Of a stretch of 64,000 bases of DNA, positions 2,448-45,149 are shown piece after piece. Source of the DNA: an uncultured Oscillospiraceae bacterium (GTDB lineage: Bacteria; Bacillota; Clostridia; Oscillospirales; Oscillospiraceae); NCBI GenBank assembly GCA_947626905.1, contig CANQUE010000001.1, positions 62,001 through 126,000 on the forward strand, read 5' to 3'. Position 1 is the stretch's first letter; every line of letters starts with the position of its first letter. The notes under the pieces were generated by a model. The model was not told where the DNA came from, did no database searches, and worked only from the letters and a program-made list of their open reading frames with translations. The translations under genes were made by a program, and so were the position numbers.

Positions 2448-3836
2448 TCACTCCATTTCCTCGACGATATGGCGGAACGTTTCGCCCCGCTGCTCAAAGT
2501 TTTTGAATCTGTCAAAGGATGTGCTGGCGGGGCTCAAAAGTACGGTATCGCCCGGCGCCGCGGCGGCGGCGGCGGCTCTGACCGTTTCCGCAAAATCCTC
2601 CAGCACGAAGATCTCCGGCGCGCCGGGCCGGTATTCCGGCGCGTTTTTCACGGCCTGCTCGATCTTTCCCGCGGTCAGACCGGTGAGGAAGAGCTTTTTC
2701 ACATGCCGGCAAACCGCCGGACCCAGTTTGTCAAAGGGCACGCCCTTATCCTTTCCCCCCGCGATAAGGATGACCTTTTCCGGGAAGCAGGCCAGACCCG
2801 CGCAGGTCCTGTCCGGACTGGAGGCGATGGAGTCGTTGATATAGGTCACGCCCCGCAGCACCCGGACCGGCTCTAGCCGGTGGGCCACGCCGGAAAACTC
2901 CCGTGCCACCCGGACCATGACGTCTGCCGGCACGAGCCCCCACACGGCCGCCATGGCGCACATCACGTTTTCCACGTTATGCATCCCCGGGATGCGGATG
3001 TCGCCGGCCGCCAGAACGGGCGTTTCCTCCCCGCCGCAGCCCTGGAAGCAGATCATTCCGTCCGGGCGCAGATATAGGCCGGGGCTGACGCTCTCCCGGC
3101 GGCTGAACCACCACAAAAAGCTGTTGGCCTCGCCGGCGCAGGCGGCGGTGACGGCGTTGTCCCGGTTCAGCACCAGCTTGGCGTTCTGCCGCTGATGCAG
3201 GAAGATCTGTTTTTTCGCGTCGATATAGTCCTGGTAATCGCGGTGGATGTCCAGATGGTTCGGCGCTATATTCGTGATCACCGCCACATCCGGCGAGCAG
3301 ATCATGGAATGGAGCTGGAAAGAGCTCAGCTCCAATACCGCCATATCTTCCGGCGTCATCTGATCCACGTCCGCCAGAAGAGGATGGCCGATATTTCCCC
3401 CCAGCCAGACCCTCCTCCCCGCCGCTTCCAGCATTTTGGCAATCAGGGTGGTGGTGGTGGTCTTGCCGTCGGAGCCGGTCACGGCGATCACGGGACAGGG
3501 ACACAGGGAGAGAAACACTTCCATCTCGCTGGTGACACAGGCGCCCTCCTGGGCAGCCCGGACCAGGGCGGGCCGGGTGGGCAGGAAGCTGGGCGTGCGG
3601 AAGATCACGTCCCCGGAGATATCCTGTTCGTAATCCTCGCCAAGGCGGAATTTTACGCCTTTGGCGGCATATCGATCGTAAAAATCTCCCAGCGCGGCGC
3701 GGTCCGATCTGTCGTGAACGGTCACGTCCACCCCCGCGTCTGAGAGCAGGGCGATCAGCGGCCGGTTGGAAAGTCCCGCGCCGATCACCGTCACGCGCTT
3801 TCCCGCCAGGCTCGCGGTGTATTCTTTCAAGGTCAA
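2448..3836 (-). CDS. murD: UDP-N-acetylmuramoyl-L-alanine--D-glutamate ligase
   Basis: This 462-aa protein adds D-glutamate to UDP-MurNAc-L-Ala in the cytoplasmic branch of peptidoglycan synthesis. Visible motifs are the N-terminal Rossmann-like GAGLSNRPL, the ATP loop TGSDGKTTTT near residue 117, the Mur-ligase ENVMCAMAA segment near 288, and the C-terminal NDSIASSPD and GGKDKGV segments. The start is TTG at 3836, 8 nt after AAGGAGG; no ATG fits. A sigma-A-type promoter lies at 3863-3891. The gene leads the small operon murD-M42-M42 and possibly yunB, and is not in a dcw cluster here. Confidence 0.95.
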   Translation of the reverse strand: MTLKEYTASLAGKRVTVIGAGLSNRPLIALLSDAGVDVTVHDRSDRAALGDFYDRYAAKGVKFRLGEDYEQDISGDVIFRTPSFLPTRPALVRAAQEGACVTSEMEVFLSLCPCPVIAVTGSDGKTTTTTLIAKMLEAAGRRVWLGGNIGHPLLADVDQMTPEDMAVLELSSFQLHSMICSPDVAVITNIAPNHLDIHRDYQDYIDAKKQIFLHQRQNAKLVLNRDNAVTAACAGEANSFLWWFSRRESVSPGLYLRPDGMICFQGCGGEETPVLAAGDIRIPGMHNVENVMCAMAAVWGLVPADVMVRVAREFSGVAHRLEPVRVLRGVTYINDSIASSPDRTCAGLACFPEKVILIAGGKDKGVPFDKLGPAVCRHVKKLFLTGLTAGKIEQAVKNAPEYRPGAPEIFVLEDFAETVRAAAAAAAPGDTVLLSPASTSFDRFKNFEQRGETFRHIVEEME

Positions 3837-3862
3837 GGCAGGCGCCTCCTTTTACCGCATAC

Positions 3863-3891
3863 AGTATAACGCAACATCTTGTGGTTTACAA
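3863..3891 (-). promoter_or_regulatory. Sigma-A-like promoter of murD
   Basis: TTGTAA, 17-nt spacer, TATACT on the minus strand, 26 nt upstream of the TTG start and its ribosome site. It lies just after the rnpB terminator, as expected for a new transcription unit. Confidence 0.65.
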
Positions 3892-3945
3892 GAAACGAAT
3901 AACTACAACTCGAAATTTATATCCCTTCTTCCAGAAAGTCCGGGC

Positions 3946-34408: not shown

Positions 34409-36712
34409 TCAGAAACCCTTGACGTTGGCGTAAACGATCGCGCTGGCAGCGCCAAAGAACGGGCTGGGATTGAAGTTCTCGATCTTGGCGTTGTACACGT
34501 CGTAGTAGTAGTTGGAGTACAGGGGGATGTCCGGCATGAGCTGGTTCCAGCGCTCGATGTAGGCTTCCCACCAAGCGTTGTACTCGTCCTCGGTCTGGGC
34601 GTTGTACACCATGCCGAAGGACAGGTAATCCATGCCCAGCTTGCCGTCGGAAGCCGCCATGGCGTCCTCCAGGGACAGCTTCTCAGCGCTCAGGTCATAG
34701 GGGAAGTCCTTGTCGTACGGGTCGACCAGCTTGTTGACAGAATAGTCGGCGTAGGCAACGTCGTCCATCCAGTTGTAGGCATAATCGTAAACGGCGCTGT
34801 TCCAGCCGGTGGCCAGGTTGTACATGCCATAGGTCGGCGTGCCCAGATAGCCCATGCTGGCGTCGCGGTAGATGTTACCGGTCAGGGTGGTGAAGTCGCC
34901 GGTGGTGGAACGGATCACCATGCCGGTCTCAGCCAGGTCGGAGCTGTTGGCCAGGGTGGTGCTCAGCAGGTCGGTGACGGTGTTGGGCTGAGAGCCGAAC
35001 CAGTTGATGGCCAGAGGCATATAGTACTCGCCGTTGATCTCCACGGTCTTGTACTCCACGCCGTCGGTGTTGGCCACGGAGGCATACTCCTTGTTGCCGG
35101 CGTCATTGCCGTAGATGTCCAGAGCGTTGGCCTCTTCCTCGGTCAGCTTCTTGTAGCGGACAGCGTCCACGCCCTCGGCGCCAGCCTCAAAGGGCTCGCC
35201 CTTGGAGTTGTAGATCCAGCCGCCATCCTCCAGCACCTTCACGGCGTTGGCGGGAGAATAGGAGTAGTCGATCAGCTCGATGTCGTCCCGGACAGCCTGC
35301 CACATATCGAAGTCAGGGCTGTAGGGGCCGTCCACCACCACGCCGTAGCCGCCGGTGAAAGCCTGGCAGAAGGCAGCGCGGTCAAGCAGATAAGCGATGG
35401 CCTGACGGACCTCGGGGAACATGGTGGGTCCGAAGTCGCAGTCGAACTGGATCTTGCCGTAGCCGGCGCGCTGATAGTGGGTCTCGGCAAAGTTCTCGCC
35501 GTCCACGACTTCCAGCGCGGACTTGGTCAGCTCGCCGCCGGTGATGTCGCTGAGCACGTCCACAGCGCCGCTCTTCAGCTGGTCGAGCTGGGTCTCCTCA
35601 ACGATCTTCACGTAGATGATGGTCTCGATGGAAGGCTTCTGGCCCTCGAAGTTGCCCTGGTACTCGGGGTTCAGGGTCAGGGTCGCCTGCTTGGTGCCCT
35701 CGTCCCACTCGGAGATGACGTAAGCGCCGGAGTACGGATAGGTGGTGATATCGTAGCGGTTGGCCTCGATCTCAGCGGCCTTCACATAGTCCTCGCCGTT
35801 CTTCTCATAGAAGTTGTCGGACAGGTAGCAGCCCTCGCCGTCGTCCATGACGGTGACGTCAGAGCCGGTCATCAGGCCCATGGGATAGGGGCTGATAGCG
35901 CCGTAGGTGTAAGCGAAATAGTACGGATAGTAGTCGGGGCTGACGGTCAGTTCGAAGGTGTAGTCGTCCAGCATACGGATGCCGGAGAAGACCTTGCTGA
36001 CCTCGGCGGCGGGAGCGGCCTCTTCAGCAGGCTCTTCGCCCTCGGCGGCCTCTTCGCCCTCAGCGGGCTCCTCGGCCTCGGCGGGCTCCTCAGCCTCGGC
36101 GGGCTCCTCAGCCTCAGCGGGCTCCTCGGTCTCAGCAGCGGCGTCGGGGCCGGTGTAGGCGTGGAACGCGTCATAGCCTACCAGGGACTGGCCGGCGGTG
36201 CCGGGCAGTCCGGCGCCAATGGCCACGGGGCTGGCCATAGCCAGAGTGGGGGCCAGATAGTTCTGGGCGGTGATGGGGGTGCCGTCGGAGAAGGTCAGGC
36301 CTTCCTTGATCTGAATGTGGATGGTGTAGGTGCCGTCCTCATTCTCGGTCTCGGTGTGCTCCTGAACAGCGGTCTCGTTCCAGACATAGGCGCCGCCCTG
36401 GTTGGTCTCCATGGTGGAGTAGCCAACGGTCAGGTTGTTGATGTCGATGTCTGCCGCGCCGGCGGAGCTGCCGCCCCAGCCGGGATAGCGGAAGTCACCG
36501 CTCAGGTCGGTGGTGCTGCCCAGGATGACCTGGTTGGTCACCTCAGCCGCAGGCTCCGCTTCGGGCTCGGTCTCGGGCTCGGTCGCGGGCTCCGCTTCAG
36601 GCTCCGTCTCGGGCTCCGTCTCGGGCTCAGTCACAGGCTCGGACCCACCGCCGCAGGCGGCCAAGCTGAGGACCATGACAAGCGCCAGAAGCAGGCAAAT
36701 CAGTTTCTTCAT
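34409..36712 (-). CDS. oppA: Oligopeptide ABC transporter substrate-binding lipoprotein
   Basis: A 767-aa SBP_bac_5 lipoprotein. Signal peptide with lipobox LAAC (Cys20), then an unusual Thr/Glu/Pro/Ala repeat linker (about 26-57), then the ligand domain with IKEGLTFSDGTPITA (136-149) and the SGAVDVLSDITGGEL-type segment. At about 190-238 the domain is interrupted by an acidic repeat built from EEPAEA units, just before VFSGIRMLDDYTF where homologues continue directly. The protein is 150-200 residues longer than classical OppA. ATG 36712 is 7 nt after AGGAGG; upstream open frame is leader. It has a strong promoter and a structured leader. Confidence 0.92.
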   Translation of the reverse strand: MKKLICLLLALVMVLSLAACGGGSEPVTEPETEPETEPEAEPATEPETEPEAEPAAEVTNQVILGSTTDLSGDFRYPGWGGSSAGAADIDINNLTVGYSTMETNQGGAYVWNETAVQEHTETENEDGTYTIHIQIKEGLTFSDGTPITAQNYLAPTLAMASPVAIGAGLPGTAGQSLVGYDAFHAYTGPDAAAETEEPAEAEEPAEAEEPAEAEEPAEGEEAAEGEEPAEEAAPAAEVSKVFSGIRMLDDYTFELTVSPDYYPYYFAYTYGAISPYPMGLMTGSDVTVMDDGEGCYLSDNFYEKNGEDYVKAAEIEANRYDITTYPYSGAYVISEWDEGTKQATLTLNPEYQGNFEGQKPSIETIIYVKIVEETQLDQLKSGAVDVLSDITGGELTKSALEVVDGENFAETHYQRAGYGKIQFDCDFGPTMFPEVRQAIAYLLDRAAFCQAFTGGYGVVVDGPYSPDFDMWQAVRDDIELIDYSYSPANAVKVLEDGGWIYNSKGEPFEAGAEGVDAVRYKKLTEEEANALDIYGNDAGNKEYASVANTDGVEYKTVEINGEYYMPLAINWFGSQPNTVTDLLSTTLANSSDLAETGMVIRSTTGDFTTLTGNIYRDASMGYLGTPTYGMYNLATGWNSAVYDYAYNWMDDVAYADYSVNKLVDPYDKDFPYDLSAEKLSLEDAMAASDGKLGMDYLSFGMVYNAQTEDEYNAWWEAYIERWNQLMPDIPLYSNYYYDVYNAKIENFNPSPFFGAASAIVYANVKGF
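35999..36145 (-). repeat. Tandem 18-bp repeat coding for the acidic insertion of oppA
   Basis: About four to seven imperfect copies of an 18-bp unit coding for EEPAEA, with variants EEPAEG and EEAAEG towards the 3' side. Such in-frame repeats can change copy number by slippage. A second, similar repeat (TEPE/EAEP units) codes for the linker after the lipobox at about 36542-36637. Confidence 0.85.
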
Positions 36713-36875
36713 CTTGTTTCCTCCTATAATATTTTGTTTTTTGCTGTTTCTACAAATCTCCGAAGAGATATTGTATATGTACTCATTCGCCCCGTAGGAT
36801 ACGGGGCGACAGGGGGGGCCGGCCCCCCCTGCGCTGTCCACGGCAGACACACTTTCGTCCACCGCACGAGCATTT
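36713..36875 (-). promoter_or_regulatory. Structured 5' leader of oppA
   Basis: The transcribed leader is about 160 nt long and holds three hairpins: a 22-nt perfect GC palindrome at 36810-36831, a 9-bp stem at 36789-36809 (CGCCCCGTA / TACGGGGCG), and a small stem with a TTCG tetraloop at 36756-36769. No T-run follows them, so they are not simple terminators. I see no known riboswitch. The rest of the gap to pepF (up to 37011) holds the promoter and no gene. Confidence 0.55.
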
Positions 36876-38866: not shown

Positions 38867-40924
38867 ATGAGTACGCTGCAAGATGACATCCGAACCCTGA
38901 AAGGCGTGGGCGAAGCCCGGGCCAAGGCGCTGGAAAAGCTGGGCATCCACACCCTGGCGGATCTGCTGGGCTACTTCCCCCGGGCCTATGAGGACCGGCG
39001 GGTATGTTACGCCATCGCCGACGCGCCGCTGGAAACGCCGGTCTGCGTGAAGGCCATGGTGGCCACGCCGCCCAGCGCCGTTTTTGTCCGCCGGGGCATG
39101 GATCTATTGAAGTTCCGGGCGGTGGACGACTCCGGCGCGGTGGACGTCACCTATTTCAACCAGAGCTTCCTCAAATCCCAGTTCGTCACCGGCCGGACCT
39201 ATATCTTTTACGGCCGGATCTCCGCCATGGGCCGGCGGTACGCCATGACCAACCCTGCCTTTGAGCCGGAGGACCGCCAGGGGACCGTCACCGGCCGCAT
39301 CCTGCCCATCTACCGGCTCACCGCCGGCACGACCCAAAAGCTGCTCCTGTCCCTTGTGGAGCAGGCCCTGGAAAAATGCGGCGGGCAGGTGCCGGACGTG
39401 CTGCCCCCCGCTCTGGCGGACCGGCTGATGCTGGCCCAGGCGCCCTATGCCTATGAGAACATCCACTTCCCCCGGGACGAGCAGGCCCTGGAGCAGGCCC
39501 GGCGGCGGCTGGTATTCGAAGAGCTGTATGTGCTGGCGGCGGCCCTCGGCCTCATGCGCCGGGAGCGCACCGCCTCCGGCGGGCAGAAGCTCGCCCCCCG
39601 GCCCATGAAGGGGTTCTGGGCCGCCCTCCCCTACCGGCCCACCAACGCCCAGATCCGGGCGGTGAACGAGGCGCTGGCGGATATGGCCTCCGGCGCGCCC
39701 ATGAACCGGCTGCTGCAGGGGGACGTGGGCAGCGGCAAGACCCTGGTGGCCGCCGCGCTCATCTGGCAGTGCGCCAAAAACGGCCTTCAGTCCGCCTTCA
39801 TGGCCCCCACGGAGATCCTGGCCGAGCAGCATTACAAGAACCTCTCCGCCCTGCTGGAGCCTATGGGCGTGCGCGTCGTGAAACTCACCGGCTCCATGAA
39901 GGCCGCGGAAAAGCGGCGCGCCGGGGAGCTCTTGGCCCAGGGCATGGCCGATGTGGCCGTGGGCACCCACGCCCTCCTCAGCGCTGGCGTATCCTTCGCT
40001 GGTCTGGGTCTGGTGGTCACCGACGAGCAGCACCGTTTTGGCGTGGAGCAGCGCAGCGCCCTGGCGGGCAAAGGCGCCCGCCCCCACGTACTGGTCATGT
40101 CCGCCACCCCCATCCCCCGCACGCTGGCGCTGATCATCTATGGGGATCTGGACATCTCCGTGCTGAACGAGCTGCCGCCCGGGCGGCAGAAGGTGGATAC
40201 CTTCGCCCTGGGCGAGGACATGCGCCCGCGGATCTGGCGCTTCGTCCGGAGGCTGGTGGGCGAGGGCCGGCAGGTGTTCGTCGTCTGCCCCATGGTGGAG
40301 GAGAACGAAGAGCTCCCCGCCGGGGTGAAGAGCGCGGAAACGTGGGCAAAGACGCTGCAGAAGACCGTGTTCCCGGACCTGCGGGTGGGCTGCGTCCACG
40401 GAAAGATGAAGGGCCGGGACAAGGACGCGGTCATGTCGGCTTTCGCCGCAGGCGAATACGACATCCTGGTCTCCACCACGGTGATCGAGGTGGGCGTGGA
40501 CGTGCCCAACGCGGCGCTGATGATCGTGGAGAACGCCGACCGGTTCGGTCTGAGCCAGCTGCATCAGCTCCGCGGCCGGGTGGGCCGGGGCCAGCACAAG
40601 AGCTACTGTGTGCTGTTCTCCGACGCCAAGGGGCCGGAGGCCCTGTCCCGACTGAAGATCATGGTGAAGACGAACGACGGCTTCGCCATTTCCGAGGAGG
40701 ATCTGCGACTGCGGGGCCCCGGCGATTTCTTCGGCTCCCGGCAGCACGGCCTTCCCCAGATGCACGTGGCGGACCTGACCGCGGATATGCGGGTGCTGAA
40801 GCAGGCCCAGGACGAGGCCCAGGCCCTATTGGCGGCGGACCCGGACCTTTCGCGGCCGGAGCACCGCCCCCTCCGGGAGCGGATCGACGCCCTCTTCCAA
40901 CTGCACGCGGACACCTTCAACTGA
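38867..40924 (+). CDS. recG: ATP-dependent DNA helicase RecG
   Basis: A 685-aa branch-migration helicase. N-terminal wedge OB domain (about 55-160), Walker A GDVGSGKT near 286-293, motif II DEQHRFGVEQR near 385-395 (the RecG form of DEAH), motif III SATPIPRT, and motifs V-VI VIEVGVDVPNA and QLHQLRGRVGRG. It remodels stalled replication forks and Holliday junctions. The ATG at 38867 has no ribosome site upstream and sits directly after the promoter. MSTLQDDIRTLKGVGEARAKALEKLGI is the normal N-terminus, so the start itself is secure. Confidence 0.95.
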   Translation: MSTLQDDIRTLKGVGEARAKALEKLGIHTLADLLGYFPRAYEDRRVCYAIADAPLETPVCVKAMVATPPSAVFVRRGMDLLKFRAVDDSGAVDVTYFNQSFLKSQFVTGRTYIFYGRISAMGRRYAMTNPAFEPEDRQGTVTGRILPIYRLTAGTTQKLLLSLVEQALEKCGGQVPDVLPPALADRLMLAQAPYAYENIHFPRDEQALEQARRRLVFEELYVLAAALGLMRRERTASGGQKLAPRPMKGFWAALPYRPTNAQIRAVNEALADMASGAPMNRLLQGDVGSGKTLVAAALIWQCAKNGLQSAFMAPTEILAEQHYKNLSALLEPMGVRVVKLTGSMKAAEKRRAGELLAQGMADVAVGTHALLSAGVSFAGLGLVVTDEQHRFGVEQRSALAGKGARPHVLVMSATPIPRTLALIIYGDLDISVLNELPPGRQKVDTFALGEDMRPRIWRFVRRLVGEGRQVFVVCPMVEENEELPAGVKSAETWAKTLQKTVFPDLRVGCVHGKMKGRDKDAVMSAFAAGEYDILVSTTVIEVGVDVPNAALMIVENADRFGLSQLHQLRGRVGRGQHKSYCVLFSDAKGPEALSRLKIMVKTNDGFAISEEDLRLRGPGDFFGSRQHGLPQMHVADLTADMRVLKQAQDEAQALLAADPDLSRPEHRPLRERIDALFQLHADTFN

Positions 40925-40930
40925 CCATAC

Positions 40931-40965
40931 AAAAAGAGCGGCCGGATCTTCCGGCCGCTCTTTTT
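40931..40965. terminator. Bidirectional terminator between recG and ispH-rpsA
   Basis: A 15-bp stem, AAAAAGAGCGGCCGG / CCGGCCGCTCTTTTT, with a 5-nt loop. It can end both convergent transcripts; it starts 6 nt after the recG stop and ends 16 nt from the rpsA stop. Confidence 0.9.
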
Positions 40966-40981
40966 ATCGGAATATTGGGGA

Positions 40982-43219
40982 TCACTTCTCCTCAGACTCG
41001 GGCTCGTCCACTTCAGGAGCCACACCGCTGACCTCGCCGGTGGCGGAGATCTCATACACCAGAGCGTCATCCTCCGGCTCGGGATCGGGCTCCGCCTTCC
41101 TGGGGGCCCGCTGACGGGCAGGCGCCGGTTCCGGCTCGATGAGAGCGCGGATGCTCAGGGAGATCTTCTGCTTGTCGTTGTCGATGGCGGTGATCTTCGC
41201 CTTCACTTCCTGGCCCACGGACAGGACCTCTTCCGGCTTGCCGATGCGGCGGTTGGCGATCTGGGAAATGTGGATCAGGCCGTCCACACCGGGCAGTACC
41301 TCGGCGAACGCGCCGAAGGGCATCAGCTTGACGATCTTCACGTCAGCCACGTCGCCGGGCTGATAGGCCGCGACGAACTTGGCCCAGGGGTTGTCCTCCG
41401 CCTTGCGGTAGCCAAGAGAGATCTTCCTCTTCTCCGGGTCGAAGCTGATGACATGGACCTCCACCTCCTGGCCGATGGACAGGACGTCTTCCGGCTTGCG
41501 GATCCGGTCCCAGCTGATCTCCGACACATGGACCATGCCGTCCACGCCGCCGATATCCACGAAAGCGCCGTAGCTGGTCATGCTCTTGACGGTGCCCTGA
41601 TAGACCTTGCCGTTCTCGATCTCGGCCCAGATCTTCTCCGCCTTCTCCTTGCGCTCGCGCACGGACACGCTGCGGATGGAACCCACCACCCGCTTGCGGG
41701 AGCGGTTGACCTCGGTGATGCGGAAGCGGACCGTCTTGCCCACCAGCTCGGACATGGGCACGTCACGGCCCAGACCGGTCTGGGAAGCGGGGATAAACAC
41801 CCGGATGCCCTTGATATTGATGACCACGCCGCCCTTGTTCTCCTCGGACACCTTGCCCTCCAGGACGGTGCCGTCCTCGCAGGCAGCCTCCACGTCGGAC
41901 CAGCTCTTGGCCGCGTCCAGACGGCGCTTGGAGAGCTGCACCGTGCCCTCCACGTCATTGACACGAACGACGGAAGCCTGGATCTCGTCGCCGACCTTGA
42001 CCAGTTCGTTGATGTCCACGCCGGGCTTATCGTCGGTGAACTCGGATACGGCTATGTATCCGGAGTGCTTGGTGGGCAGATCAACGGTGATCTCGGTGGA
42101 GCCGATGGCAGCCACGATACCGGTAACGGTCTCGCCGTTGTGGATGGTGCGGATGGAATCCTCCAGCATCTGATCAAAGCTCTTCTCCGACGGGGCGGCA
42201 GGAGCTTCCTCTGCGGCAGCGGGAGTTTCTTCCGGAGCAGGGGTCTGCTCTGCGGCGGCAGGAGCTTCTTCCGCGACCGGAGCTTCCTCCGCAGCGGCAG
42301 GGGCTTCTTCCACAACAGGCGTTTCTTCCACAGCGGGGCTCTCCTCGGCGACAGGTTCTTCTTTCAGGATCTCAGGCTCGTTCATTTTGTTTACTACCTC
42401 CTTAATTATCCACGAGGGCGTTGAGGCGCCGGCCGTAACGCCGACGGAGGAACACCCGGAAAGGTTCTTTCTGTCCAGCTCGTCCGCCGTTTCCACGAAC
42501 AGGACGGTGGGGCAATTCTCCGCACAGATCTGCGCCAAACGAATGGAATTGGCGCTGTGCCTTCCCCCTGCCACCACCATGGCGTCGCAGGCCACGGCGA
42601 GCTGTCTGGCCTCATTTTGCCTAATACTCGTAGCATCACATATTGTATCAAATATCTCTGCGTTTGTACACAGTTTTTTTATCGAATTAATACTTTGTTC
42701 ACTATTTTCTTTGTTGGAGGTGGTCTGAAAAACCACCGTGATGGGCCTGTCCGGAGCCGTACCGGACGTATCCATCCATCGAAGCATTTCCTCCAGATCG
42801 CGGACCACCACCGCGCCGCCGCACCAGCCGCATATGCCCTGGATCTCCGGATGATCCGGCTCCCCGAAGACCACCACCTGCCGGCCCTGGCCTTCCGCCT
42901 GCGCCACGATCCGGTGGATGCGGGACACCCTGGGGCAAGTGGCGTCCAGGATGACGCATCTCTTTTCTTTCAGTATGTCCTGTTCCGCCCGGGAAATACC
43001 GTGGGAGCGGATCACCACCCGCTCTCCGGCGGGCACGTCCTCCACCCTGTCCGCGATGCGCAGGCCCCTTTCCATCAGCCGGGCCACCACGTCCCGGTTG
43101 TGGATCAGCTCCCCCAGACACCAGCAGCCGTTTCCGTCCGACAGAGCCTTTTCCGTCATGGAAACGGCCCGGTCCACGCCAAAGCAGAACCCCGCGCTCT
43201 TCGCCACCGTGACAGTCAT
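40982..43219 (-). CDS. ispH-rpsA: Fused HMB-PP reductase (IspH) and ribosomal protein S1 (RpsA)
   Basis: A 745-aa fusion known from several Clostridia. Residues 1-278 are IspH, the last enzyme of the MEP isoprenoid pathway, with the three iron-sulfur cysteines at 12, 95 and 194 and the usual EPDHPEI and TTSNKE segments. Residues 285-345 form a Glu/Pro/Ala/Val linker. Residues about 350-700 hold four S1 RNA-binding domains (for example YGAFVDIGGVDGMVHVSE), followed by an acidic tail. Met279 has its own AAGGAGG site, so a separate 467-aa S1 may also be made. ATG 43219 overlaps cmk by 4 nt. The plsC gene usually between cmk and ispH is missing. Confidence 0.94.
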   Translation of the reverse strand: MTVTVAKSAGFCFGVDRAVSMTEKALSDGNGCWCLGELIHNRDVVARLMERGLRIADRVEDVPAGERVVIRSHGISRAEQDILKEKRCVILDATCPRVSRIHRIVAQAEGQGRQVVVFGEPDHPEIQGICGWCGGAVVVRDLEEMLRWMDTSGTAPDRPITVVFQTTSNKENSEQSINSIKKLCTNAEIFDTICDATSIRQNEARQLAVACDAMVVAGGRHSANSIRLAQICAENCPTVLFVETADELDRKNLSGCSSVGVTAGASTPSWIIKEVVNKMNEPEILKEEPVAEESPAVEETPVVEEAPAAAEEAPVAEEAPAAAEQTPAPEETPAAAEEAPAAPSEKSFDQMLEDSIRTIHNGETVTGIVAAIGSTEITVDLPTKHSGYIAVSEFTDDKPGVDINELVKVGDEIQASVVRVNDVEGTVQLSKRRLDAAKSWSDVEAACEDGTVLEGKVSEENKGGVVINIKGIRVFIPASQTGLGRDVPMSELVGKTVRFRITEVNRSRKRVVGSIRSVSVRERKEKAEKIWAEIENGKVYQGTVKSMTSYGAFVDIGGVDGMVHVSEISWDRIRKPEDVLSIGQEVEVHVISFDPEKRKISLGYRKAEDNPWAKFVAAYQPGDVADVKIVKLMPFGAFAEVLPGVDGLIHISQIANRRIGKPEEVLSVGQEVKAKITAIDNDKQKISLSIRALIEPEPAPARQRAPRKAEPDPEPEDDALVYEISATGEVSGVAPEVDEPESEEK
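42383..42403 (-). promoter_or_regulatory. Internal ribosome site and ATG at the ispH/rpsA junction
   Basis: AAGGAGG at 42397-42403 lies 10-11 nt before an in-frame ATG at 42385 that begins MNEPEILKEE, exactly where the IspH domain ends. It would give a free S1 protein of normal length for Firmicutes. Confidence 0.6.
42642..42670 (-). promoter_or_regulatory. Possible internal promoter upstream of the rpsA part
   Basis: TGTACA, 17-nt spacer and TACAAT with an extended TGA before the -10, inside ispH and in a strongly AT-rich patch (about 42600-42725). Transcription from it would start about 250 nt before the internal rpsA ATG. Confidence 0.4.
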
Positions 43220-43911
43220 GACCCGCTCTTCTCCCCCATCCGCTGCCGCACCAGATCATACACCGCGGCGATGCTCTCCTCCAGCGTCATGCAGGAGGTA
43301 TCCACCGTCACGGCGTCCTCCGCCGCCCGCAGCGGCGCGGCGGCCCGGGAGGCGTCGTCATGGTCTCGCTTGGCCATATCCGCCGCCACCTGCTCAAAGG
43401 TGCTCCCGTCCCCCTTGGCGGCCAGCTCCGCCAATCTCCGGCGGGCCCTGGCCTCCCGGGAGGCGGTAAGGAATACTTTCAGATCCGCCCGGGGCAGCAC
43501 CACCGTACCGATGTCCCGGCCGTCCATGACCACGCTGTGGACCTTGGCGGCCTCCCGCTGCATATCCAGCAAAAATGCCCGGACCGCCGGCAGCGCGGAT
43601 ACCGCCGAGGCGTACATGCTCATCTCCGGACTGCGGATGGCACCGGAAACGTCCTCGCCGTTCAAATACATCCTCTGGCTGCCGTCGGGACTGTAATCGA
43701 ACCGGATCTCCAGCCCCGGCAGCAGCGGCGCCACGGCGGCGGCGTCATGGGGATCGGCCCCCGCCCGGCGCACCGCCAGCCCTACCGTCCGGTAGATGGC
43801 CCCGGTATCCACGTATACGAACCCGCAGCGGGCCGCCACCGCTTTGGCGATGGTGCTTTTGCCCGCCCCGGCGGGGCCGTCGATGGCAACTGCGAAGCGC
43901 TTGTCACTCAT
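43216..43911 (-). CDS. cmk: Cytidylate kinase
   Basis: A 231-aa kinase for CMP and dCMP, with P-loop DGPAGAGKST at 11-20, VDTGAIYRTVGL near 35-46, the CMP-binding DGRDIGTVVLP near 152-162 and the lid region TASREARARRRLAEL. It overlaps the flavoprotein gene upstream and ispH-rpsA downstream by 4 nt each, so it is translated with both. cmk next to rpsA is a widely kept order. Confidence 0.95.
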   Translation of the reverse strand: MSDKRFAVAIDGPAGAGKSTIAKAVAARCGFVYVDTGAIYRTVGLAVRRAGADPHDAAAVAPLLPGLEIRFDYSPDGSQRMYLNGEDVSGAIRSPEMSMYASAVSALPAVRAFLLDMQREAAKVHSVVMDGRDIGTVVLPRADLKVFLTASREARARRRLAELAAKGDGSTFEQVAADMAKRDHDDASRAAAPLRAAEDAVTVDTSCMTLEESIAAVYDLVRQRMGEKSGS

Positions 43912-45149
43912 GCCGGTCTTTCCTTTCCCACCGCCCGGCCGGCGCAGCGGCCGGTAGACCAGGCGATCTGCAAATTATAGCCGCCGGTGTATGCGTCCAC
44001 ATCCAGCACCTCACCGGCAAAGTACAGTCCCCGGACCAGCTTGGAACCCATCGTCCGCGGATCGATCTGCCGCACGTCCACGCCCCCGCCGGTGACGATG
44101 GCGCTGTTGGCAGGCTCCCAAGGGCCGCTGACAGGCACGGGCAGCGCCTTGATGACCTGTCCCAGCGCCTGGCGCTGCGCCCGGGTGAGGTCATGGGCCT
44201 TCGTTTCCGGCGGGATCTGCGCCAGCCGGAGCATCACGGGGATCAGCGATCGGGGCAGCAGTTCGCCCAGGGCGTTGCCCATATCCCGGTTCTTGAATTT
44301 TTCAAGATCCCGCAGTATCCGCTCGTCCAGCTTTCTGCTATCCAAGGCGGGCTTGAAGTCAACGGAAAGGTCGTACTTTTTCTCGCCCCAGCGCATATGG
44401 GCGCTGGCCGTCAGCACCAGCGGTCCTGTCACGCCGTAGTAAGCGAAGAGCATCTCCCCCCGCTCGGTATAGACCGCTTTCCCATCCTCGTAAACGGTCA
44501 GATCCACGTTTCTCGGGGAAAAACCGGCCAGCTCCGCACAGTACGGCGCGGAACTGATCAGCGGCACCAGCGACGGGCGGGGCGGTACGACGGTGTGTCC
44601 CACGGAGGCCGCCAGGGCGTATCCGTCCCCGGTGGAGCCGGTGGAGGGGCAGCTCTTGCCCCCTGTACAGACAATGGCGGCGGCGCAGGGTATCATCCCC
44701 CGGCTGGTGACGACCCCGCGCAGGCGGCCGTCTTCCACAGCCAGACCGGCGGCGCGGCCGTACACATGGCCCACGCCCAGCGTTTCGCACCAGCGGCTCA
44801 GCGCGTCGGCGATGTCGTGGGCGTTATCGCTCACCGGGAATACCCGGCCGCCCCGTTCCGTCTTCAGGGGCACGCCCAGCCGGTCCTCGAAAAAGTCCAT
44901 CACGTCCGAGGGAGAGAAGGCGGTGGCGGCGCTGTAGAGGAATTTCGGGTTGCTGACCACATTGGCAAGGAAAGTCCGCACATCGCAATGGTTCGTCACA
45001 TTGCACCGCCCCTTGCCGGTGATGCGCAGCTTTTGCCCATACCTCTCGTTGGGCTCCACGATCACCACCTTCAGGCCATGCTCCGCCGCGGTGCCCGCCG
45101 CCATGAGCCCGGCGGCGCCGCCGCCTATCACGGCCACGTCAGCTCTCAT
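43908..45149 (-). CDS. HI0933/BaiN-like FAD-dependent oxidoreductase
   Basis: A 413-aa flavoprotein with the FAD-binding GGGAAGLMAA at 9-18, GKLRITGKGRCNVTN-like ring near 40-54, GGKSCPSTGSTGDGY near 157-171 and the C-terminal GGVDVRQIDPRTMGSK and FAGEVLDVDAYTGGYN blocks. The family is widespread; its reaction is mostly unknown, although one member is called BaiN in bile-acid-converting Clostridia. It overlaps rpiR by 11 nt. In many Clostridia it is found just before cmk, as here. Confidence 0.92.
   Translation of the reverse strand: MRADVAVIGGGAAGLMAAGTAAEHGLKVVIVEPNERYGQKLRITGKGRCNVTNHCDVRTFLANVVSNPKFLYSAATAFSPSDVMDFFEDRLGVPLKTERGGRVFPVSDNAHDIADALSRWCETLGVGHVYGRAAGLAVEDGRLRGVVTSRGMIPCAAAIVCTGGKSCPSTGSTGDGYALAASVGHTVVPPRPSLVPLISSAPYCAELAGFSPRNVDLTVYEDGKAVYTERGEMLFAYYGVTGPLVLTASAHMRWGEKKYDLSVDFKPALDSRKLDERILRDLEKFKNRDMGNALGELLPRSLIPVMLRLAQIPPETKAHDLTRAQRQALGQVIKALPVPVSGPWEPANSAIVTGGGVDVRQIDPRTMGSKLVRGLYFAGEVLDVDAYTGGYNLQIAWSTGRCAGRAVGKERPA

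Follow-up and report, generated by a model that had tools for sequence, protein, structure and literature searches.

The ispH-rpsA open reading frame analyzed here, from an uncultured Oscillospiraceae bacterium, very probably consists of two genes nested in a single frame. In this arrangement rpsA would form a transcription-translation unit of its own within the longer frame, with IspH being made only as a fusion to ribosomal protein S1 and S1 being made also as a free protein. The anatomy of the gene, conservation at synonymous sites, and the behavior of split, relocated and decayed copies in relatives are observed directly, and from them we infer the activity of the promoter and start site, the amounts of the two products and their purpose. 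The gene lies in a stretch of 64,000 nucleotides (hereafter the window), and its features are collected in Table 1.

Anatomy of the fused gene

The reading of the 745-aa frame revealed no in-frame stop between ispH and rpsA. At the junction, the minus strand reads TGG ATA ATT AAG GAG GTA GTA AAC AAA ATG AAC GAG CCT, with a spacer of 11 nt between AAGGAGG and an ATG that opens a 467-codon S1 frame ending at position 40982. The first-pass annotation had described these elements (AAGGAGG and ATG at the ispH/rpsA border, a 467-aa S1 and no stop in between), and all of them can be read directly in the window. The stop of cmk and the start of ispH overlap by 4 nt (ATGA), and the fusion sits in a same-strand gene run.

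Table 1. Coordinates of the ispH-rpsA gene, its predicted internal signals and the neighboring cmk within the window
Feature	Position	Strand	Basis
cmk (cytidylate kinase)	43216..43911	-	Name from the authors' reading of the translation
ispH-rpsA fused ORF, 745 aa	40982..43219	-	Direct reading; NCBIfam NF000907
IspH part, residues 1-278, with Fe-S cysteines C12, C95 and C194	42386..43219	-	Pfam LYTB 3-279
AT-rich patch, codons 171-186, at and upstream of the -35 box	42662..42709	-	
Predicted internal promoter: TGTACA (42670-42665), 17 nt, extended -10 TGATACAAT, TACAAT at 42647-42642	42642..42670	-	
Predicted transcription start of S1-only mRNA, ~7 nt past the -10 box	42634..42636	-	Promoter position
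Internal Shine-Dalgarno AAGGAGG (codons K273, E274 and first base of V275)	42397..42403	-	
Internal ATG of free S1 (fusion residue 279)	42383..42385	-	
Free S1 reading frame, 467 aa: acidic Ala/Glu/Pro linker, then four S1 domains	40982..42385	-	
Four S1 domains: 42139-41924, 41878-41672, 41620-41405 and 41362-41147	within 41147..42139	-	

Profile searches place the Pfam LYTB boundary at residue 279, with the four S1 domains downstream. The IspH part matches solved IspH chains, and its three Fe-S cysteines are invariant in an alignment of 11 sequences. The fusion had been given in the first-pass annotation as a known bifunctional protein, which is correct: the product scores 698 bits over residues 1-701 against NCBIfam NF000907 (bifunctional IspH/S1; cut-off 624), and such proteins are described in PMC4746011. 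Rao et al. 2015 (PMC4746011) reported 447 IspH-RPS1 fusions in genomes with no other ispH or rps1, obtained active enzyme on expressing one of them, and suggested sensing linked to the ribosome. The present gene shares this architecture (it has four S1 repeats, and neither ispH nor rps1 occurs a second time) and is a member of this already-known family. That paper, however, treats the gene as one bifunctional protein, a Rosetta-stone hybrid, and makes no mention of an internal start, Shine-Dalgarno sequence or promoter.

A search of the 91%-complete genome with the S1 profile found no separate rpsA; the sole other S1-domain match was a 724-aa frame away from the fusion, which is probably PNPase. 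In some Clostridia, a second, stand-alone S1-profile protein occurs beside the IspH-S1 fusion (loci L155, L163, L170 and L178, in genomes G154, G202, G099 and G178), and these proteins depart from the one-copy rule stated in 2015.

Other observations concern the surroundings of the gene. A perfect inverted repeat, aaaaagagcggccgga..tccggccgctcttttt, lies at 40931-40965, where rpsA and a helicase-like plus-strand ORF (38867-40924) converge from either side, and is likely to be a bidirectional terminator; our terminator scan missed it, probably because the T run belongs to the stem. A substrate-binding-protein-like ORF on the minus strand (34409-36862) contains expanded acidic repeats (TEPE/AEEPAEAEEP) that resemble the acidic S1 linker in style. 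A structured RNA leader was considered and rejected, an Rfam scan of 42200-44100 having given no match near threshold.

Conservation and relocation of the probable internal start site

To follow the site beyond the window, homologous genes were gathered from the genus, order, class and phylum, yielding 222 fused genomes from 109 families. GGAGG or GGGGG is found at the identical place and in the identical phase in all 222, followed in each by an in-frame start codon: ATG at 11 nt in 212 genomes, ATG at 8 nt in seven and GTG at 11 nt in three (one locus, L061, was missed by the script and read by eye, its ATG lying 11 nt past the second of its GGAGG motifs). Retention of the site in related species, which the first-pass annotation had put forward as a check, is therefore complete among these fused genomes (GG[AG]GG with an in-frame start in 222/222). 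The site is also present in 77 of 78 fused genes of a second, named set, which includes Flavonifractor, Pseudoflavonifractor, Ruminococcus, Moorella, Syntrophomonas and many metagenome-assembled genomes. It should be noted that the two sets overlap partly and that close relatives are not independent, and hence the argument rests on family-level counts.

Codon usage points to constraint acting on the nucleotides. Residue 274 is written GAG in 164 of 164 class-level codon-aligned genes, as compared to a mean of 43% of Glu codons elsewhere in these genes (the background being the codon use of the fused genes themselves). The synonymous codon entropy of this residue is 0, the lowest of 144 conserved degenerate columns, with the next best at 0.78 bits. 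The preceding codon may be AAG, GAG, AGG, CAG, TTG, GGG or ATG, such that the residue changes and the last base is always G, and in five genomes a change from Glu to Gly (GGG) at the motif still keeps AGGGGG. AT-rich genomes retain GAG too. Residues 276-278 and 280-282 vary widely in the class-level alignment while the start codon stays constant, and only 16 other internal Shine-Dalgarno and ATG sites were found within the 222 fused genes. These patterns indicate that the internal Shine-Dalgarno sequence and start codon are conserved beyond what the protein would require.

Across the genus, predicted mRNA structure dips twice, at the promoter patch described below and exactly at the internal start, where it amounts to ~-2 kcal/mol per 44 nt versus ~-14 kcal/mol nearby. 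Real translation starts show such a dip in structure at the start codon. The spacing is less typical, as GGAGG sites elsewhere in the window commonly have spacers of 6-9 nt, shorter than the 11 nt of the internal site. The 11-nt spacer occurs in nearly all of the 222 fused genomes, though 8 nt would also be in frame and nearer to the usual optimum. In Staphylococcus aureus, longer Shine-Dalgarno spacing with extended pairing has been reported as normal (PMC13009471).

Lineages in which the gene has been split, moved or lost provide ready-made natural experiments. Six genomes lack a single ispH-rpsA frame. Five of these (G051, G085, G171, G194 and G232) keep GAG GAG GTT or AAG GAG GTA at the motif, and their rpsA opens in the +1 frame inside ispH, at an ATG or GTG 9-10 nt past the motif that is its sole start. 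In the sixth (G041; locus L057, G041:C45, ~15000), what is left of ispH is a decayed remnant interrupted by several frame breaks; the 90%-complete genome yielded no other ispH, yet both TGGAGG and the ATG of rpsA are preserved. Where rpsA instead starts downstream of the ispH stop (G061, G287, G271, L343 and, in Alkaliphilus, L328), the Shine-Dalgarno sequence is found there and is absent from the end of ispH; likewise, unlinked ispH genes read CAA GAT, AAA GAA and similar at the site. Overall, the motif is kept in one of 11 families with ispH unlinked or the rpsA start relocated, versus 112 of 112 linked families (Fisher p ~7e-14), the single exception being G156. Two further cases record movement of the site: G267 retains the old GGAGG and has a second AGGAGG ahead of its moved start, and L337 (~3795-3900), which is still fused, encodes K-E-V as AAA GAA GTT and carries an SD-like AGGTGA together with an ATG ten codons downstream. 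This comparison indicates that the Shine-Dalgarno sequence tracks the start of S1 and not the residues of IspH.

The open frame itself also shows signs of constraint. In-frame stops at codons 276-278 are absent from the aligned fused genes, despite the fact that 166 of the 492 codons at these positions are one base from a stop; therefore the fusion, too, looks selected. Comparison of these genes thus suggests that the fusion itself is kept by selection, though frameshift splits do occur.

A predicted promoter within ispH

Only one promoter-like match, the site at 42670-42642 with TG preceding TACAAT, was found between positions 40900 and 43950. The codon scan had flagged I193 (ATA in 129 of 158 genes), and the codons of T192 and I193 together spell TTTGATACAATATG, the extended -10 box. 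Among the 33 genus genomes, which are not independent samples, TACAAT occurs in 33/33, with T192 written ACA (33/33; background 7.5%) and I193 written ATA (33/33; background 9.9%). A -35 box of TATACA or TGTACA lies 17 nt from a TGATACAAT-type -10 box in 32 of the 33 genus members; the -35 hexamer of the window is weak, matching at 4 of 6 positions. The 17-nt spacing of the hexamers, within the 16-18 nt of sigma-A promoters, and the synonymous conservation lead us to predict a sigma-A-type promoter at 42670-42642.

In the 33 genus members, GC3 falls to 0.12 at codons 171-185 in the AT-rich patch, compared to a gene mean of 0.81. The minus-strand segment 42642-42709 is strongly AT-rich and synonymously constrained within a GC-rich gene. 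Its upstream stretch, AGTGAACAAA..TATTAATT, hardly varies within the genus and may serve as an UP element or as a site for a regulator.

The distribution of the promoter is narrower than that of the start site. TACAAT is present in 80 of 132 other class members, some of which have better -35 boxes (e.g., TTGCAA), and in just four of 57 fused genomes outside the class. The possibility that the internal promoter is a phylum-wide feature was rejected on this basis; rather, the predicted promoter appears to be a trait of many Clostridia that is either more recent or less widespread than the Shine-Dalgarno sequence and start codon.

Two probable products from one frame

Under the nested arrangement, ribosomes loading at the ispH start would read through into rpsA, and each IspH would be born as IspH-S1, since ispH lacks both its own stop codon and a second copy. 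Free S1 would arise by internal initiation at the Shine-Dalgarno sequence and start codon embedded in the last codons of ispH. This would occur mostly on a short, S1-only mRNA beginning near 42635 and comprising the last third of ispH and the whole of rpsA, and perhaps also, as seems probable, on a long mRNA running from cmk into ispH. In the source genus and many other Clostridia, the short mRNA would be driven by the predicted promoter inside ispH, ~260 nt upstream of rpsA. S1 is usually needed in amounts near those of the ribosome and a biosynthetic enzyme in smaller ones; a nested S1 unit would let the output of S1 exceed that of IspH, with free S1 probably in excess.

Several other explanations were weighed. 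It is quite unlikely that free S1 alone is of consequence, with the open frame an accident of overlap and the fusion a tolerated by-product. Lineages with split frames (G051, f51 and G232) evidently do live with separate proteins; yet the fused genes contain no stops in codons 276-278 despite many one-step opportunities, and there is no other ispH gene (PMC4746011), so that, unless released by cleavage, all IspH must be in fused form. Such cleavage is the core of another alternative, in which both proteins derive from proteolysis of the fusion at its acidic linker and internal initiation plays no part. This explanation is favored by the Ala/Glu/Pro linker encoded in the window, which is long and of low complexity; however, linker length and sequence differ strongly among relatives, and proteolysis would leave the DNA-level conservation of the Shine-Dalgarno sequence, the start codon and the promoter unexplained. 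We regard it as very improbable.

Equally improbable in our judgment is that only the fusion is made and that the internal GGAGG serves as a programmed pause, acting through the anti-Shine-Dalgarno sequence, so that IspH folds and gains its Fe-S cluster before S1 is made. The site coincides exactly with the end of the IspH domain, which would suit a pause. A pause, however, needs no start codon, and one is found in frame at fixed spacing in all 222 fused genomes; the split lineages use the site as the start of rpsA; unlinked ispH products also fold and bind the cluster, yet their genes do not contain the motif; and the internal promoter would remain unaccounted for. Coincidence was possible from this genome alone, as AAG GAG GTN encodes the K-E-V common in IspH (K-E-V or E-E-V is common at its C-terminus, including in unlinked ispH) and a GC-rich genome would write these codons anyway. 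The relatives rule it out and leave it practically no probability: GAG is used in 164 of 164 genes where 43% would be expected, AT-rich genomes keep GAG, Glu to Gly changes keep AGGGGG, and other codons, such as AAA GAA or GAT, are found in the unlinked or relocated cases.

The first-pass annotation proposed that the cell makes a free S1 as well as the fusion, and this is strongly supported by comparison among genomes, through the conserved Shine-Dalgarno sequence and start, the split lineages, the movement of the Shine-Dalgarno sequence with the start, the low mRNA structure and the predicted promoter, while the fusion would be made because there is neither a stop nor a second ispH. The annotation had further proposed that S1 and the isoprenoid enzyme may be tuned independently, which stands for one side only: S1 could be made without IspH, and its independent tuning is plausible, but IspH cannot be made without S1. 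Its remaining suggestion, that the fusion could place an iron-sulfur enzyme on the ribosome, had been published in 2015 (PMC4746011), and is uncertain because a ribosome-anchored bS1 has been reported absent in S. aureus, another Firmicute (PMC13009471). A related scheme would have free S1 as the default and the ratio of fusion to free S1 regulated by the internal promoter and Shine-Dalgarno sequence versus read-through, with the Fe-S enzyme present on a limited, controlled fraction of S1 and so of ribosomes or mRNAs, coupling translation across Clostridia to isoprenoid or iron-sulfur status; we consider this unlikely, though deserving of some weight.

The layout is of the known in-frame internal-start kind. 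Like infB of Escherichia coli (IF2 alpha/beta), clpA, clpB, cheA and other N-terminal proteoform pairs (PMC11005335), the gene has an in-frame internal start that would yield a C-terminal isoform and, as with infB, the product belongs to the translation machinery. It differs from these cases in that the short product would be a complete and different protein, conservation of the site extends across a phylum, and a promoter appears to be nested as well. Overlapping operon genes of the 4-nt ATGA type also carry a Shine-Dalgarno sequence inside the upstream ORF, and the split cases (G041, G051, f51 and G232) are exactly of this form; in the 222 fused genomes, by contrast, both genes share one frame across the overlap with no stop, making the upstream product a fusion. 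In the E. coli cmk-rpsA operon, rpsA follows cmk and has its own promoters upstream of and within the preceding gene but, unlike here, no ispH lies between them and there is no fusion. The literature searched contained no report of an internal start or promoter in ispH-rpsA, and no transcription-start, ribosome-profiling or N-terminomic data on this gene in Clostridia; the "RpsA" of a ribosome-profiling paper on Clostridium ljungdahlii is a different S1-domain protein.

This gene is annotated as a single bifunctional protein in hundreds of anaerobe genomes. If the internal unit works as its conservation implies, the annotation would overlook the predominant form of a protein central to translation, and proteomic signals assigned to IspH would largely measure S1. 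The Rosetta-stone argument would also be altered, given that the fusion appears to be kept while S1 would not be obliged to carry IspH. With a two-product gene, the reason for the IspH-S1 fusion could be tested directly, by eliminating each product in turn.
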